Origin: Clostridia bacterium
GTDB lineage: Bacteria > Bacillota > TC1 > UBA5767
Assembly: GCA_030625965.1 (NCBI GenBank)
Contig: DAOUPV010000003.1
Span: 38,744 to 102,743, forward strand
Reading direction: 5' to 3'
Length of the DNA: 64,000 nucleotides
The first letter of the stretch is position 1, and the number at the start of each line of letters is the position of its first letter. The translations under genes and the position numbers were made by a program. The notes below the pieces were generated by a model, which worked only from the letters and a program-made list of their open reading frames with translations, made no database searches and was not told the origin of the DNA. Positions 5,096-22,214 of this stretch are shown here, in pieces.

Positions 5096-5494
5096 ATGAA
5101 AATAACAACCAAAGGAAGATATGGACTACGTGCCATGGTAGAACTGGCCCGCAATTATAAGGAGAGAGAATACCAGTCACTCAGATCGATATCCGAGAAC
5201 CAGAACATACCAGAGAATTACCTGGAACGCTTGCTGGCAAAATTGCGTAAGGCCGAGCTGATTGAGACCCACAGGGGAACCCAAGGAGGCTACCGGTTGA
5301 TTCGGGAGCCGGCGGATGTCAGTGTGCTGGAAATCCTATTGGCAGTCGATGAACCACTTTATCTGGTAGAATGCACCAAGAACGCTACGGCTTGCCCTCA
5401 GTATGATCGGTGTCCCAGCAATGTGGTTTGGTCCAAGATGGCCAAGGAGATGCAACGTGTAGCCCGGGAAACGACTTTAAAGGAATTGCTTTAG
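5096..5494 (+). CDS. Rrf2 family transcriptional regulator (IscR/CymR-like)
   Basis: [18 protein letters not shown] start and winged-HTH; Cys cluster [14 protein letters not shown]; upstream of nifS/iscU. Confidence 0.9.
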
Positions 5495-5510
5495 ACAAGG
5501 AGAGAACATC

Positions 5511-6686
5511 ATGAAAGAAATATATATGGACAATGCTGCAACGACCAGGGTGTCCGAGCGGGTGATTAAGAAAGCGCCGGAGATACTTAGGGATACTTAC
5601 CATAATCCATCCAGCATCTACCGTGGAGCCCAGATGGCCAAAGCGGAGATAGAGAAGGTGCGGGAAGATTTGGCCAAGAGCCTGAATGCGAATCCGAAAG
5701 AAATCTATTTCACCTCGGGAGGAACTGAAAGCGACAACTGGGCAATTCGAGGTGTAGCAGAGAAGAAGGGGCAGGGACATATCATTACCAGCTCCATAGA
5801 GCATCATGCGGTGCTGCATACTTGTGAGTATCTGGAAAAGCAAGGCTTTAGCGTCAGCTATCTGCCCGTGGATGACAAAGGACTGGTCAGCATTGAGGAT
5901 GTCGCAAAAGAGATCCGGGATGATACCATCCTGATTAGTATCATGTACGCCAACAATGAGATCGGAACGGTTCAACCGATTGCCGAGATCGGACGTTTAG
6001 CCAGAGATAAGGACATACTTTTCCATACGGATGCAGTTCAGGCATTTGGTAAGCTGGACATAGATGTAAATTTGGAGAATATTGATCTGCTGTCCCTATC
6101 GGCACATAAGCTGCACGGTTTGAAGGGGACGGGAGCTCTTTATGTACGGAAAGGGATCAGATTGGAGAACCTAATCCAGGGCGGTGCCCAAGAGAAAAAG
6201 AAACGCGCCGGAACAGAGAACGTAATGGGCATCCTTGCACTGGGCGAAGCCATGCGGGAAAGCTACGAAGAGCGTGATGAGAAGAACCGCGTAGTAAGAG
6301 GATGGCGTGAGCATCTGATCGATACATTGCTGGCGGAAATTCCCTACAGCCGTTTGAATGGCGACCGGGAGAAAAGGTTGCCTGGCAATGTGAATATTTC
6401 ATTCCGGTTCATTGAAGGGGAGTCACTCCTGATGTTGCTAGAGAAGGAAGGAATATTGGCTTCCAGCGGTTCTGCTTGTACTTCGGGTTCGCTGGACCCC
6501 AGCCATGTGTTGCTGGCCATCGGACTTCCGCATGAAATCGCACACGGTTCGCTGAGGATCAGCTTGGATTATACAGAAAACGATGAGGGGCAGATTGAAC
6601 ATCTGATCAGTGTGTTACCCGGTATCGTGGAACGACTTAGAAATCTATCGCCTCTGTATGAGGATTATCTGAAGGGAGAAAATTAA
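5511..6686 (+). CDS. nifS: Cysteine desulfurase (NifS/IscS family)
   Basis: [29 protein letters not shown] (PLP Lys), [17 protein letters not shown] (active Cys loop). Confidence 0.96.
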
Positions 6687-7118
6687 ATGTACAGCGATAA
6701 AGTAATGGACCATTTCGACCATCCGCGCAATGCGGGTATTCTAGAAGATGCCGATGCGGTAGGAACGGTCGGCAATGCAAAATGCGGTGACATCATGAGG
6801 ATCTATCTGAATATCGAGGACGATATCATCGAGGATGTAAGTTTCAAGACATTCGGCTGCGGAGCTGCGGTTGCGACCAGCAGCATGGCCACTGAACTGA
6901 TTAAAGGAAAGAGCGTGGAAGAGGCTTTGACGATTACCAACAGCGCGGTCATGGAAGCGCTGGACGGCCTGCCACCCAACAAGGTGCATTGCAGTCTGTT
7001 GGCGGAAGAAGCGATCAACGCAGCTATTTATGATTATGCAGAAAAACATGACAAGACTTACCCAGGTTTGCATGAACCGGTGGAAGATATTCATGAAGAA
7101 GATGACGATGATGAGTAA
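6687..7118 (+). CDS. Fe-S cluster scaffold protein, NifU/IscU N-terminal type
   Basis: MYSDKVMDHFDHPRNAGIL, NAKCGDIM, FKTFGCGAAVATSSM, HCSLLAEEAI. Confidence 0.95.
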   Translation: MYSDKVMDHFDHPRNAGILEDADAVGTVGNAKCGDIMRIYLNIEDDIIEDVSFKTFGCGAAVATSSMATELIKGKSVEEALTITNSAVMEALDGLPPNKVHCSLLAEEAINAAIYDYAEKHDKTYPGLHEPVEDIHEEDDDDE

Positions 7119-17711: not shown

Positions 17712-18320
17712 GTGAGGAAGATCAGCAAAGATTCATACAGAACCGTTGATAAGGAATGCGAATCCCGCCTGGTCATCGAACGGTCTGAATTTATTGCCAA
17801 AGTTAAGCGTGTGAAACGGGAAGACGAGGCTAAGGAATGGATCAAATCCATAAAAACCGAGCACCGGGATGCGACCCACAACTGCAGCGCCTATGTAATA
17901 GGTGTTGACAGGGAGCATCAATTCTACGATGACAACGGAGAACCTCACGGTACGGCTGGACGACCCATCCTGGGCGCCATTGATTCACTGGAGCTGACCA
18001 ATGTGGCCGTGGTGGTCACCAGACATTTCGGTGGCAAGAAGTTGGGTGTGCGTGGACTGATCGAGGCTTACGGGCAGGTTGCCCATGATGCACTGGTGGC
18101 AAGTGACCCCGTTATCGTGCTCATCACTAGGGAAGTCCATATCAAGGCGGATTACAAGCATGTGGACCGGATCCATTATCTGATTCAGGAAAACGGTGCC
18201 AAAATACTGGGTGAGACGTTCCTGGTTGACGTAGAGATAAAGGTTGCCATTGTTAGAAACCAAGCAGAGGATTTTGCGGGATGTATCAAAGCGTTTGCCA
18301 AAGAAGTAACCGTCATATAG
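17712..18320 (+). CDS. YigZ/IMPACT family protein
   Basis: SEFIAKVKRVKREDEAKEWI, DDNGEPHGTAGRPIL, VVTRHFGGKKLGVRGLIEAYG; GTG start after ggggtg. Confidence 0.93.
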   Translation: MRKISKDSYRTVDKECESRLVIERSEFIAKVKRVKREDEAKEWIKSIKTEHRDATHNCSAYVIGVDREHQFYDDNGEPHGTAGRPILGAIDSLELTNVAVVVTRHFGGKKLGVRGLIEAYGQVAHDALVASDPVIVLITREVHIKADYKHVDRIHYLIQENGAKILGETFLVDVEIKVAIVRNQAEDFAGCIKAFAKEVTVI

Positions 18321-18358
18321 AATAGGTCTAGAATTGTCCGATTGCAGGAGACCAAGAC

Positions 18359-19057
18359 ATGTACTATACTAATAAAGATATAATCCGGTATGAAGGCGGT
18401 GCCTTCACCGAAGTGTGCGATAAAGTGATCATGGAGGATGAAATCGAGGTGCTCTGTGGCCAGGACTTGCTGGGTCGATATCCCTGCACCGACAAGGAGC
18501 GGGACCTGTTGGCTCTGGGACTGGCCTACAGCCATGGCTATCAGGTGGACGCAGAGACTCCAGCACAGGTGGCGGGAAAACGTGTTCAGCTGCCTGAATT
18601 GGCGCTGCGTAGCAATATTGGAGTAATCATCCAATCTGATTTATCTTATGAAGCGGAGCTCCTATTGGAGAATATGCAGCAGTTAAGGGATATGCCCGGT
18701 CTGTTCACGGAAACCGGCGGAACCCATAACGGCGCATTGATCTATCGGGGAGAGCTGAAGATATGGTCGGAAGACATCAGCCGGCATTGCATGGTAGACA
18801 AGCTGATCGGGGCGGCCCTGCGTAACAATTGGGCATTTTCTGAGTTGGCCATATTGCTCAGTTGTCGTGTTTCGGATAGCATCATAAAAAAGCTTATAGT
18901 AGCGGGTATGCCCATCGTGGTCTCCATGTCTGCCGTTACAGACAAGGCCATTGAGATGGCATCAACCCAGGGAGTGACATTAGCCGGTTTCGCACGTGGG
19001 AAACGGATGAATATATATACTGGAAAAAGGATAGGAAAAGGTGAGGAACGTGATTAA
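18359..19057 (+). CDS. FdhD-family sulfurtransferase-like protein lacking the canonical CxxC
   Basis: C-terminal FdhD signature TETGGTHNGALIYRGELKIWSEDISRHCMVDKLIGAAL ... CRVSDSIIKKLIVAGMPIVVSMSAVTDKAIEMASTQGVTLAGFARGKRMNIYT. Position of the CGxCG loop reads RSNIGVII. Confidence 0.82.
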   Translation: MYYTNKDIIRYEGGAFTEVCDKVIMEDEIEVLCGQDLLGRYPCTDKERDLLALGLAYSHGYQVDAETPAQVAGKRVQLPELALRSNIGVIIQSDLSYEAELLLENMQQLRDMPGLFTETGGTHNGALIYRGELKIWSEDISRHCMVDKLIGAALRNNWAFSELAILLSCRVSDSIIKKLIVAGMPIVVSMSAVTDKAIEMASTQGVTLAGFARGKRMNIYTGKRIGKGEERD

Positions 19058-19406
19058 AGATATAGCTAAGGAACTGGCGGATGCCATTGTGGGTTCCAAG
19101 GAGTACGCCGAATACAAAAAGGCCAGAACGGACCTGGAAAAGGATGAAGAGAACTTTGAAATTCTAGAAGAGCTTCGTCAAAGACAATGGGAAATACAGC
19201 TGGATGCCATGATTGGCAAGGATGCACCGTTTGTAGAAATGGAAGAAGTGGATGAGATTTATTCCAGTGTTGTGGATAATGAAAAAATCAACCAGTTCCT
19301 TATGGCGGAATACCGTTTTACCAAGGTGCTGACTGAAGTGCAGAATATTTTACTCGAGTCTATCGAGTCGACCAAAAAGAACAACGAGAATATGTCGTTG
19401 CATTAG
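19041..19406 (+). CDS. YlbF/YmcA family protein
   Basis: Small all-helical protein, ADAIVGSKEYAEYKKARTDLEKDEE ... EYRFTKVLTEVQNIL; GTG start. Confidence 0.8.
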   Translation: MRNVIKDIAKELADAIVGSKEYAEYKKARTDLEKDEENFEILEELRQRQWEIQLDAMIGKDAPFVEMEEVDEIYSSVVDNEKINQFLMAEYRFTKVLTEVQNILLESIESTKKNNENMSLH

Positions 19407-19415
19407 GAGAAGAAG

Positions 19416-20039
19416 ATGTTTAAATTATTTCGTAATAAAAAGGTCATGAAGCTGATTGTCGGTTTTGTGGCTCTTTCATTTCTAGGCGGGTTTGTAGGTT
19501 CCTTTGCGGTACGTTCCTTGGGTCAGCTCGATGAACCGGAACCGCAGGAAAATGACTTCGCGGAACAGCTTTCAGATATGATAGACCAGATGGAAGATGA
19601 TCTGGTATATTATACTTCTGCTACTGAAGTGGATCCGGACAATGTTGACAACTACATACTGCTGGGAGACACCTATTACGATATCGCCGGACTCAGAAGC
19701 GGTTATTACGGTGAAGACGTGACAGATTATCTGCAGCAGGCAAGGGATAGCTACACGACTGCTTATGAACTCGATGCGAGCAGGAAGAATCTGATGCTGT
19801 CCATCGCCATGGTGGAAACGGCGCTCAGCGACTTCACAGAGGCCTCATCCTACTACGAATCTTTCCTGGCGGAATATCCGGAATCATTCGAAGCCAATGC
19901 ACTCTATACCCAGATGCTGGCGTTGTCTGAAGAAACGGACCAGGCTCAGGAGTGGCTAGCGAAAACTAAGGAACTGGCAATCAGTGACGAGGAACTTGAT
20001 ATCGTGGAACAGTTGGACGGGATAGTCAATCCTTCCTAA
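19416..20039 (+). CDS. Membrane-anchored tetratricopeptide repeat protein
   Basis: N-terminal TM (VMKLIVGFVALSFLGGFVGSF) and TPR-like repeats (NYILLGDTYYDIAGL..., SYYESFLAEYPESFEANALYTQMLAL). Confidence 0.8.
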   Translation: MFKLFRNKKVMKLIVGFVALSFLGGFVGSFAVRSLGQLDEPEPQENDFAEQLSDMIDQMEDDLVYYTSATEVDPDNVDNYILLGDTYYDIAGLRSGYYGEDVTDYLQQARDSYTTAYELDASRKNLMLSIAMVETALSDFTEASSYYESFLAEYPESFEANALYTQMLALSEETDQAQEWLAKTKELAISDEELDIVEQLDGIVNPS

Positions 20040-20054
20040 TGAGGTGAAGATAAG

Positions 20055-22214
20055 TTGGAAAAAATCGGGAAACGTATACCTATCGATGATGCGAGAGTAA
20101 AAACGACTGGCAAAGCTACCTATGTGGACGATCTACGTCTGCCGGGCATGCTTCATGCTGTCTTGCTGCTCTCGGAAGAAGTCCATGCCGAACTGATCAG
20201 CGTGGACGCGGACAAGGCATTAGCAATGGAGGGTGTCAGGGCGGTTTTTAGTTTTTTCAACACGCCGGATACGCTGTATAACGGTGCTGCACCATTCGAT
20301 ACGGAAGATTTCCCTGCACAGGAAAGACTGTTTTCCAAGCGAATACGGCACCAGGGTGACCGCATTGCCATGGTTGTGGCGGATAGCAAGAAACAGGCGT
20401 TGGCAGCGGCCAAACAGGTGCGTTGCCAGTTAAAGACATTGCCAAGCGTCCTTAATATGGAGGAGTCTCTGCAGGAAGATGCTCCTCAGGTAGATCCAGA
20501 CGGGAATCTGCAGGCGCGTTGCGAGATGATGAGTGGAGATTTGGTTGAAGCAGAAAATTTGGCGGACGGGGTATTCAAGACCCGGATGCTGGTCCCGTCT
20601 TACCATCAGGCCGCCATGGAACCGCATGGCGTCGTAGCGGACTGCGACGAGCTGGGCGGTGTCATAGTCTATTCTCCGACCCAGAACATCTTTTCAGCAC
20701 GCATGATCTGTGCCAAGGTCCTGGGTATCAGCGAAGCCCAGGTACGGGTAGTACAGTCTACCATGGGTGGATCTTTCGGCTCCAAACTGGAAATCATTCT
20801 GGAACCGCTTTGCGCCTACGCTTCCTACCAACTGAAGCGTCCGGTGAAGCTGGTCCTGAACCGAAAACAGACTATGAAGGCCAGCAGACGGAGCTATGGT
20901 ATCCTAGCGGATATCCGAAGTTTCGTTCATGATGGCAAATGGATCGGATTGGATATAGATATCCTGGTAGATGCGGGCGGTTATTGCTCCAGTGGGCAGG
21001 ATTTCATCTGGGCCATGAGTGCAAAACCGTTCCGTCTATATGATATACCCCATGTCAGGTACCGCGCGGCCTCGGTCCTGACCAACAAGACCACCGCCTC
21101 GGCCATGAGGGGATATGGCTCGACGCAGTTGATTACTGCGCTGGAACATCATGTGGATGCTCTGGCGAAACACCTGTCAACAGATCCTGGCGACTGGCGC
21201 AGGCGCTATGCCTTTGGGCCTGACGGTAAGGACCTAAGGGACGGGAAGACATTCGGCAGCATCGGTCTTTGGGATTGCATTGATGAAGGAAAAAGGAAAT
21301 TCAACTGGCCATTGGGAGTAAGGACTGAAGATGAGCAGTACTGGTATGGCGCCTCGTTGGCCTTGGGAATCCATGGCAATGGCATGTACCCTGTTCATAC
21401 CGACTTGACGACCATGGGCCTGAAAATGAATATGGATGGAAGTCTGGTCCTTAATACGGGAACCGTGGACATGGGGACCGGAGCCAATACCAGCTTTCGT
21501 ATGATCGTAGCTGAAGTGATGGGCGTACCGCTTGAGAAAGTAGGCATGCAGCGCGGAGATACGACAGCGTGTCCGTATGATCTGGGTTGTTACGCCAGCC
21601 GGAGCATCTATGTGGCAGGGAATGCTGCCCTCAAGGTTGCCTCATCCATGAGGAAACGGATCGAGCAGGAAACCGGGCGAACGCTGGAAGACGTTAATCT
21701 TGGCGAGTTTGCGTTACAAGCATTCCGCAGGGATGCACGTGACATCTATTGCCAGGAAACATACGTATCCAATGCGGATCCCATGAGCTACGCCGCGCAT
21801 TTCGCCCGAGTCCGGGTGGACAAGCATACTTTGGAGGTGCAGGTGCTCGACTATCTGGCTGCACACGATATCGGCAGAGCGATCAATCCGATGAGCTTGG
21901 AAGGGCAGATCGAGGGCGCAGTGCAGATGGGTATCGGCATGGCACTCAAGGAGGGCCTCAGATTTGACCCGGATGGCAAGCTTTTGAACAGTAGCTTCAA
22001 GAACTATCCGTTGATCAAGGCGGTAGAGATGCCGAAGATCAGTGTGAAAATGATTGAATCAGAGGAAACGACAGGACCTTTCGGAGCCAAGAGCATCGGG
22101 GAAATTGCAGCTGTGCCGGTGGTGGCGGCTGTGACCAATGCGGTTTCCGTAGCTTTGGACATGACAATCAATGAATTGCCTATTAATGAAATAACAGCTA
22201 GGAGAGACAGATGA
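20055..22214 (+). CDS. Xanthine dehydrogenase-type molybdopterin-binding subunit
   Basis: 719 aa; IGKRIPIDDARVKTTGKATYVDDLRLPGMLHAVLL, GGSFGSKLE, AMRGYGSTQ, GPFGAKSIGEIAAVPVVAAVTNAV. TTG start. Confidence 0.9.
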   Translation: MEKIGKRIPIDDARVKTTGKATYVDDLRLPGMLHAVLLLSEEVHAELISVDADKALAMEGVRAVFSFFNTPDTLYNGAAPFDTEDFPAQERLFSKRIRHQGDRIAMVVADSKKQALAAAKQVRCQLKTLPSVLNMEESLQEDAPQVDPDGNLQARCEMMSGDLVEAENLADGVFKTRMLVPSYHQAAMEPHGVVADCDELGGVIVYSPTQNIFSARMICAKVLGISEAQVRVVQSTMGGSFGSKLEIILEPLCAYASYQLKRPVKLVLNRKQTMKASRRSYGILADIRSFVHDGKWIGLDIDILVDAGGYCSSGQDFIWAMSAKPFRLYDIPHVRYRAASVLTNKTTASAMRGYGSTQLITALEHHVDALAKHLSTDPGDWRRRYAFGPDGKDLRDGKTFGSIGLWDCIDEGKRKFNWPLGVRTEDEQYWYGASLALGIHGNGMYPVHTDLTTMGLKMNMDGSLVLNTGTVDMGTGANTSFRMIVAEVMGVPLEKVGMQRGDTTACPYDLGCYASRSIYVAGNAALKVASSMRKRIEQETGRTLEDVNLGEFALQAFRRDARDIYCQETYVSNADPMSYAAHFARVRVDKHTLEVQVLDYLAAHDIGRAINPMSLEGQIEGAVQMGIGMALKEGLRFDPDGKLLNSSFKNYPLIKAVEMPKISVKMIESEETTGPFGAKSIGEIAAVPVVAAVTNAVSVALDMTINELPINEITARRDR

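Follow-up and report, generated by a model that had tools for sequence, protein, structure and literature searches.

A genus-restricted FdhD-family protein without the cysteine loop, a candidate chaperone of selenocysteine formate dehydrogenase in Clostridia

Chaperones of formate dehydrogenase and their cysteines

The closest described relatives of the protein considered here are FdhD of E. coli and FdsC of R. capsulatus, which are cofactor chaperones of formate dehydrogenase (FDH). Groups disagree on whether FdhD acts as a persulfide sulfurtransferase or serves mainly as a chaperone of the cofactor. The E. coli cysteines were essential for FdhF in earlier work (cited in PMC6239281), and the C121A/C124A variant of FdhD and the C104A/C107A variant of FdsC bind bis-MGD and still give active FDH (PMC6239281). 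Conservation of CXXC does not extend to the whole family, and group III includes members without any cysteine (PMC6239281). The FdhD of M. maripaludis is named as Cys-less, one or no loop cysteine is found in some FdhDs, many of the bacteria concerned have minimal Fe-S (MIS) machinery, and fdhD is absent from some FDH-bearing organisms (PMC10609526). Due to the active double-Cys variants, the lack of conservation of CXXC and the Cys-less M. maripaludis protein, the persulfide role that the initial annotation assigned to the loop cysteines cannot be taken as settled.

The gene described here (the window fdhD) lies in a 64,000-nt stretch of Clostridia bacterium DNA, which was analysed as a whole and is called the window (contig DAOUPV010000003.1, positions 38,744 to 102,743). 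Its product shares with FdhD and FdsC the family profile, the fold and the family-invariant residues, whereas its client is only putative. Compared with E. coli FdhD, it is about 45 residues shorter, the Cys loop is deleted, EDxGRHN has become EDISRHC and SGR has become SCR. Like the group III proteins and the Cys-less FdhD of M. maripaludis (PMC6239281, PMC10609526), it has no loop cysteines; unlike group III, it has lost the whole loop, forms a genus-restricted branch, carries two new cysteines and belongs to an operon with yigZ, ylbF, TPR and XDH-type genes (Table 1).

Table 1. Features of the window fdhD locus and related regions. Positions are those of the window unless a genome or locus is given.
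Feature	Position	Strand	Evidence and remarks
Rrf2-like gene (assigned by eye), IscS and IscU together	5096..7118		IscS-IscU pair 11 kb upstream of the window fdhD
IscS-type cysteine desulfurase, possible sulfur donor	5511..6686	+	Pfam PF00266; paired with IscU
IscU scaffold adjoining IscS	6687..7118	+	Pfam PF01592 match at G000:C45:45430-45795; ORF
ORF of 122 aa	17278..17646	-	Same place in G001, G002 and G003; no Pfam match at E up to 0.001
yigZ-like (UPF0029) gene, directly upstream of the window fdhD	17712..18320	+	Pfam PF01205
AGGAG ribosome-binding site	18346..18350	+	ATG 8 nt downstream; read from sequence
Window fdhD	18359..19057	+	Intact ORF, 232 aa
R84-I91 (RSNIGVII), residual sequence at the Cys loop deletion	18608..18631	+	HMM-HMM alignment
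C144 codon (EDIGRHN to EDISRHC)	18788..18790	+	N in 81/83 other FdhDs; C only in the three genus members
C169 codon (SGR to SCR)	18863..18865	+	G in 78/83 other FdhDs; C shared by the three genus members and four further loop-less FdhDs
ylbF-like gene, 17 nt overlap with the fdhD end	19041..19406	+	Pfam PF06133; near yigZ across class genomes
TPR-repeat protein, same operon	19416..20039	+	Pfam TPR matches; beside ylbF only in family f1
Stand-alone XDH-type molybdopterin subunit	20055..22214	+	Pfam PF01315, PF02738, PF20256
Second IscU/NifU_N paralogue beside an XDH-type large subunit	G000:C41:5221-8471; G003:C1:1229801-1233079
AIR-synthase-adjoining loop-less FdhD regions	L161:5333-7029; L162:6658-8525; L178:6534-8419

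A conserved FdhD with a deleted loop

The window fdhD encodes a loop-less protein of the FdhD/NarQ family, which matches Pfam PF02634 (FdhD-NarQ) at 138.6 bits, against a gathering cut-off of 27.2. Orthologues are present in both other genomes available for the genus (g1), with 70% identity in G003 and 50% in G002 (Peptococcaceae bacterium UBA5767), and score 142.0 and 141.8 bits, respectively. The protein falls below the NCBIfam equivalog cut-offs (TIGR00129, 129 vs. 140.9 bits; NF001943, 131 vs. 269 bits), and the loop that holds the cysteines of the sulfurtransferase equivalog (C121/C124 in E. coli) is deleted. Its sequence matches the solved FdhD structures 4PDE and 2PW9. The same two structures are the best PDB matches of an AlphaFold model (E ~1e-13 to 1e-12, TM 0.67-0.69 by query length), which was built from the protein and one orthologue (mean pLDDT 70, pTM 0.74, for an alignment of 2 sequences only). 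A Pfam scan detected no DNA-binding or signalling domain.

The loop was located by HMM-HMM alignment, in which the three genus members were compared with 50 Cys-bearing FdhDs from Bacillota (100% probability). This alignment contains a 17-residue gap exactly over the template segment YITTGCGKGTTFYNVMD, immediately after R84, and SNIGVII aligns downstream of the gap. RSNIGVII thus marks where the two sides of a deletion meet. The initial annotation had given the position of RSNIGVII correctly but equated it with RTGCGVCG and proposed an exchange of both cysteines for Ile; this Cys-to-Ile substitution is rejected by the profile alignment. None of the five cysteines of the protein (C20, C33, C43, C144 and C169) aligns with the loop, so that no other cysteine occupies the catalytic position, and none is present between C43 and C144. 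C43 is shared with most Cys-bearing FdhDs. The motif is also absent from the orthologues in G003 and G002, of which the former has one unaligned Cys (RTQADCII). Together with the Pfam and fold matches, this bears out the proposal of an FdhD homologue without loop cysteines.

The remainder of the protein combines strict conservation with a few unusual changes. All the residues that are invariant in 83 other FdhDs are kept (E26, G120, H123, D139, R142, D147, G151, R170, K178, F211 and Y220). Five near-invariant motif residues differ (G141S, N144C, G169C, P193V and R225I), and the positions consistently changed in the genus are G141, N144, G169, E174, R190, P193 and R225. E. coli FdhD carries V, S and A at the positions of N144, G169 and P193; the N144 and G169 sites therefore both tolerate change.

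The N-terminal part diverges among the orthologues. Between the window fdhD and its G003 orthologue, pN is 0.198 and pS 0.85; as pS is saturated at this low pN, the gene has been kept by purifying selection. A pseudogene was rejected because the reading frame is intact in three genomes and pN/pS is ~0.2 vs. G003, and a missed N-terminus was rejected because of the good ribosome site and the conserved MYY[TS]N start. The divergence rate is about that of the TPR and yigZ neighbours and faster than that of AOR or malic enzyme. A search for related loci with the single protein query returned no match, and with an alignment query it returned UBA5767 only; among 399 genomes of the phylum, no match outside the genus exceeded 122 bits.

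The genome of the window (G000) contains a second FdhD on contig C87, 62% identical to the FdhD of the sister genus (G001). A second, CxxC-bearing FdhD had been suggested as something to look for; the C87 protein provides the second copy, but its loop (RSGCGRTG) has only the first Cys. It groups with the G001 FdhD, apart from the window FdhD, which makes it unlikely that the latter is a decayed duplicate of the genome's other FdhD. In sum, the window fdhD encodes a genuine FdhD that lacks the Cys loop and is under selection; its kind is ordinary, and some of its details are unusual.

Loop-less FdhDs in Bacillota

The loop Cys motif is absent from 32 of 92 FdhDs (91 from Bacillota and that of E. 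coli), as judged by a string rule that may misread some rows, in a sample ranked by similarity to the window FdhD and therefore not unbiased. In a tree built from the C-terminal domain, the state of the loop changes about 10 times, and at least three of these changes are forced by starred branches, meaning that loop loss is recurrent. Loop-less FdhDs are also already described, and the loss in the window FdhD is not new in kind. The three genus members group on a long starred branch of their own (99), whose placement with other loop-less SCR bearers is loose (83, open).

An FDH catalytic gene lies within ~6.5 kb at 7 of the 19 loop-less loci examined, including two other SCR-bearing ones (L163 and L176). 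The FdhD of L164, with an ambiguous loop, is likewise beside an FDH catalytic gene, in addition to these seven. Two starred loop-less clades show other neighbours. In a clade of five (L159, L160, L165, L171 and L172; family f16), fdhD is directly upstream of, and co-directional with, a gene for a RACo-type corrinoid activator in all five members, FdhD being located near 6.2-7.3 kb. A full-text literature search found no paper linking FdhD with RACo. In the second clade, an AIR-synthase-related gene (HypE/SelD-like domain) directly adjoins in three of five members, those read.

Operon context and candidate clients

A Sec-FDH gene with an in-frame TGA (HCAR[LT]-TGA-H[SA]PTVA) is present in 10/10 genomes of the class. 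The form found in the genus (HCARL-TGA-HSPTVAS) occurs in all three members, whose Sec-FDHs are 78-86% identical. The window FdhD or its orthologue is the only FdhD match in G003 (one contig, 99% complete) and in G002. In its loop state and the presence of Sec-FDH, the protein resembles FdhD group III, i.e., FdhDs without loop cysteines in FDH-bearing genomes (PMC6239281). The FDH of the genus resembles the G004 enzyme (58%) more than the G001 enzyme (50%), and the window FdhD scores 92 bits vs. the G004 FdhD and 60 bits vs. the G001 FdhD; these values hint, weakly, that the lineages of FDH and FdhD may go together.

The best explanation is that the window FdhD is a genus-specific, fast-evolving chaperone for the selenocysteine formate dehydrogenase, whose cofactor is sulfurated without a loop persulfide, and to this reading we assign a probability of roughly 0.55. 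Family membership and the literature suggest that the nucleotide site of its FdhD fold would hold a bis-pterin guanine dinucleotide cofactor with Mo or W. The protein would then deliver the sulfurated cofactor to the Sec-FDH of the genome, as its position as sole FdhD beside a conserved Sec-FDH in two genomes suggests. A cysteine desulfurase, for which the window offers a candidate (Table 1), may pass sulfur directly to the bound cofactor, or sulfide may be the source. Among the roles put forward by the initial annotation, that of a cofactor-binding chaperone is favoured. Against this reading, the window fdhD and the FDH gene are unlinked, the near-invariant motif residues listed above differ, the scores fall below the equivalog cut-offs, and the E. 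coli cysteines were essential for FdhF in earlier work. In the same order, five genomes (G005-G009, genus g4), up to 98% complete, contain Sec-FDH, and no FdhD was found in them; FdhD may therefore not be strictly needed in the order.

The operon itself suggests another client. The window FdhD could have taken on the maturation, as a cofactor chaperone, of the operon's XDH-type protein or of another XDH-family enzyme of the genus, which would make it the functional counterpart of XdhC, the sulfuration chaperone of the XDH family. The co-directional yigZ-fdhD-ylbF-TPR-XDH operon is tight in three of three genus members, which confirms the XDH-type neighbour that the initial annotation wished to see checked. 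Further points in favour are the changed near-invariant residues and the XDH-type subunit matches in the three genomes (24, 15 and 9 in G000, G002 and G003, respectively). The TPR and XDH-type genes join yigZ-ylbF in family f1, whereas an fdhD located between yigZ and ylbF is confined to genus g1. In the sister genus (G001), the yigZ-ylbF-TPR-XDH operon has no fdhD, and 94 nt separate yigZ from ylbF. The XDH-type subunit can therefore exist there without this FdhD, the linkage is not obligate as an XdhC-like role would have it, and the neighbourhood offers weak evidence for a partnership; the simplest history is a gain of fdhD in g1. In addition, the window FdhD is in a different Pfam family from XdhC, and every genome of the class has separate proteins of the XdhC type, which usually mature XDH. 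No XDH-type gene was found at E <1e-8 in the other loop-less FdhD neighbourhoods examined. A mono-pterin cofactor is general in XDH-family enzymes, which also counts against such a client. Recruitment to an XDH-family enzyme is thus unlikely, and a partnership with the operon's XDH-type protein is possible, with adjacency as its only indication.

The orthologues of the XDH-type subunit are 76% and 59% identical in the genus and 51% in the sister genus. The gene is conserved in four genomes of the family and has no FAD or 2Fe-2S partner genes beside it. XDH-family molybdopterin subunits are very numerous in G000, with 24 MoCoBD_1 matches in a 2.6-Mb genome.

Less likely still is that the sulfur relay was kept but moved, with C144 (RHC) and C169 (SCR), each within a conserved C-terminal-domain motif, taking over persulfide transfer or binding a metal. 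The two cysteines replace near-invariant residues and are Cys in three of three genus members, and C169 recurs in 4 of 29 other loop-less FdhDs and in none of the Cys-bearing ones. However, SCR may have arisen a single time in its bearers (support 83, open fork), so that its co-occurrence with loop loss may be a single event; outside the genus C144 is without parallel, and neither cysteine is present in most loop-less FdhDs.

The probability is lower again that the window FdhD no longer matures an enzyme and serves as a cofactor-binding regulator or storage protein, other routes supplying the sulfurated cofactor of FDH. The divergent N-terminus, the placement among housekeeping genes and the Sec-FDH of relatives without any FdhD match would fit such a role. 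So would the other loop-less clades that adjoin RACo or AIR-synthase-like genes and not FDH, as members of the FdhD family can therefore acquire other settings. But the family-invariant residues are all kept, no other FdhD was found in two of the FDH-bearing genomes, and the protein has no DNA-binding or signalling domain. A rebuilt relay, in which the loop was deleted in the genus and the new RHC and SCR cysteine pair sulfurates the cofactor, possibly for an XDH-type client, is highly improbable.

For the preferred reading, a chaperone of Sec-FDH that works without loop persulfide, the genus offers a natural test case: the loop is gone, and in two Sec-FDH genomes no other FdhD was found. Beyond the genus, the loop has been lost repeatedly in Bacillota, which suggests that its cysteines are an accessory confined to some lineages and not the core of the family.
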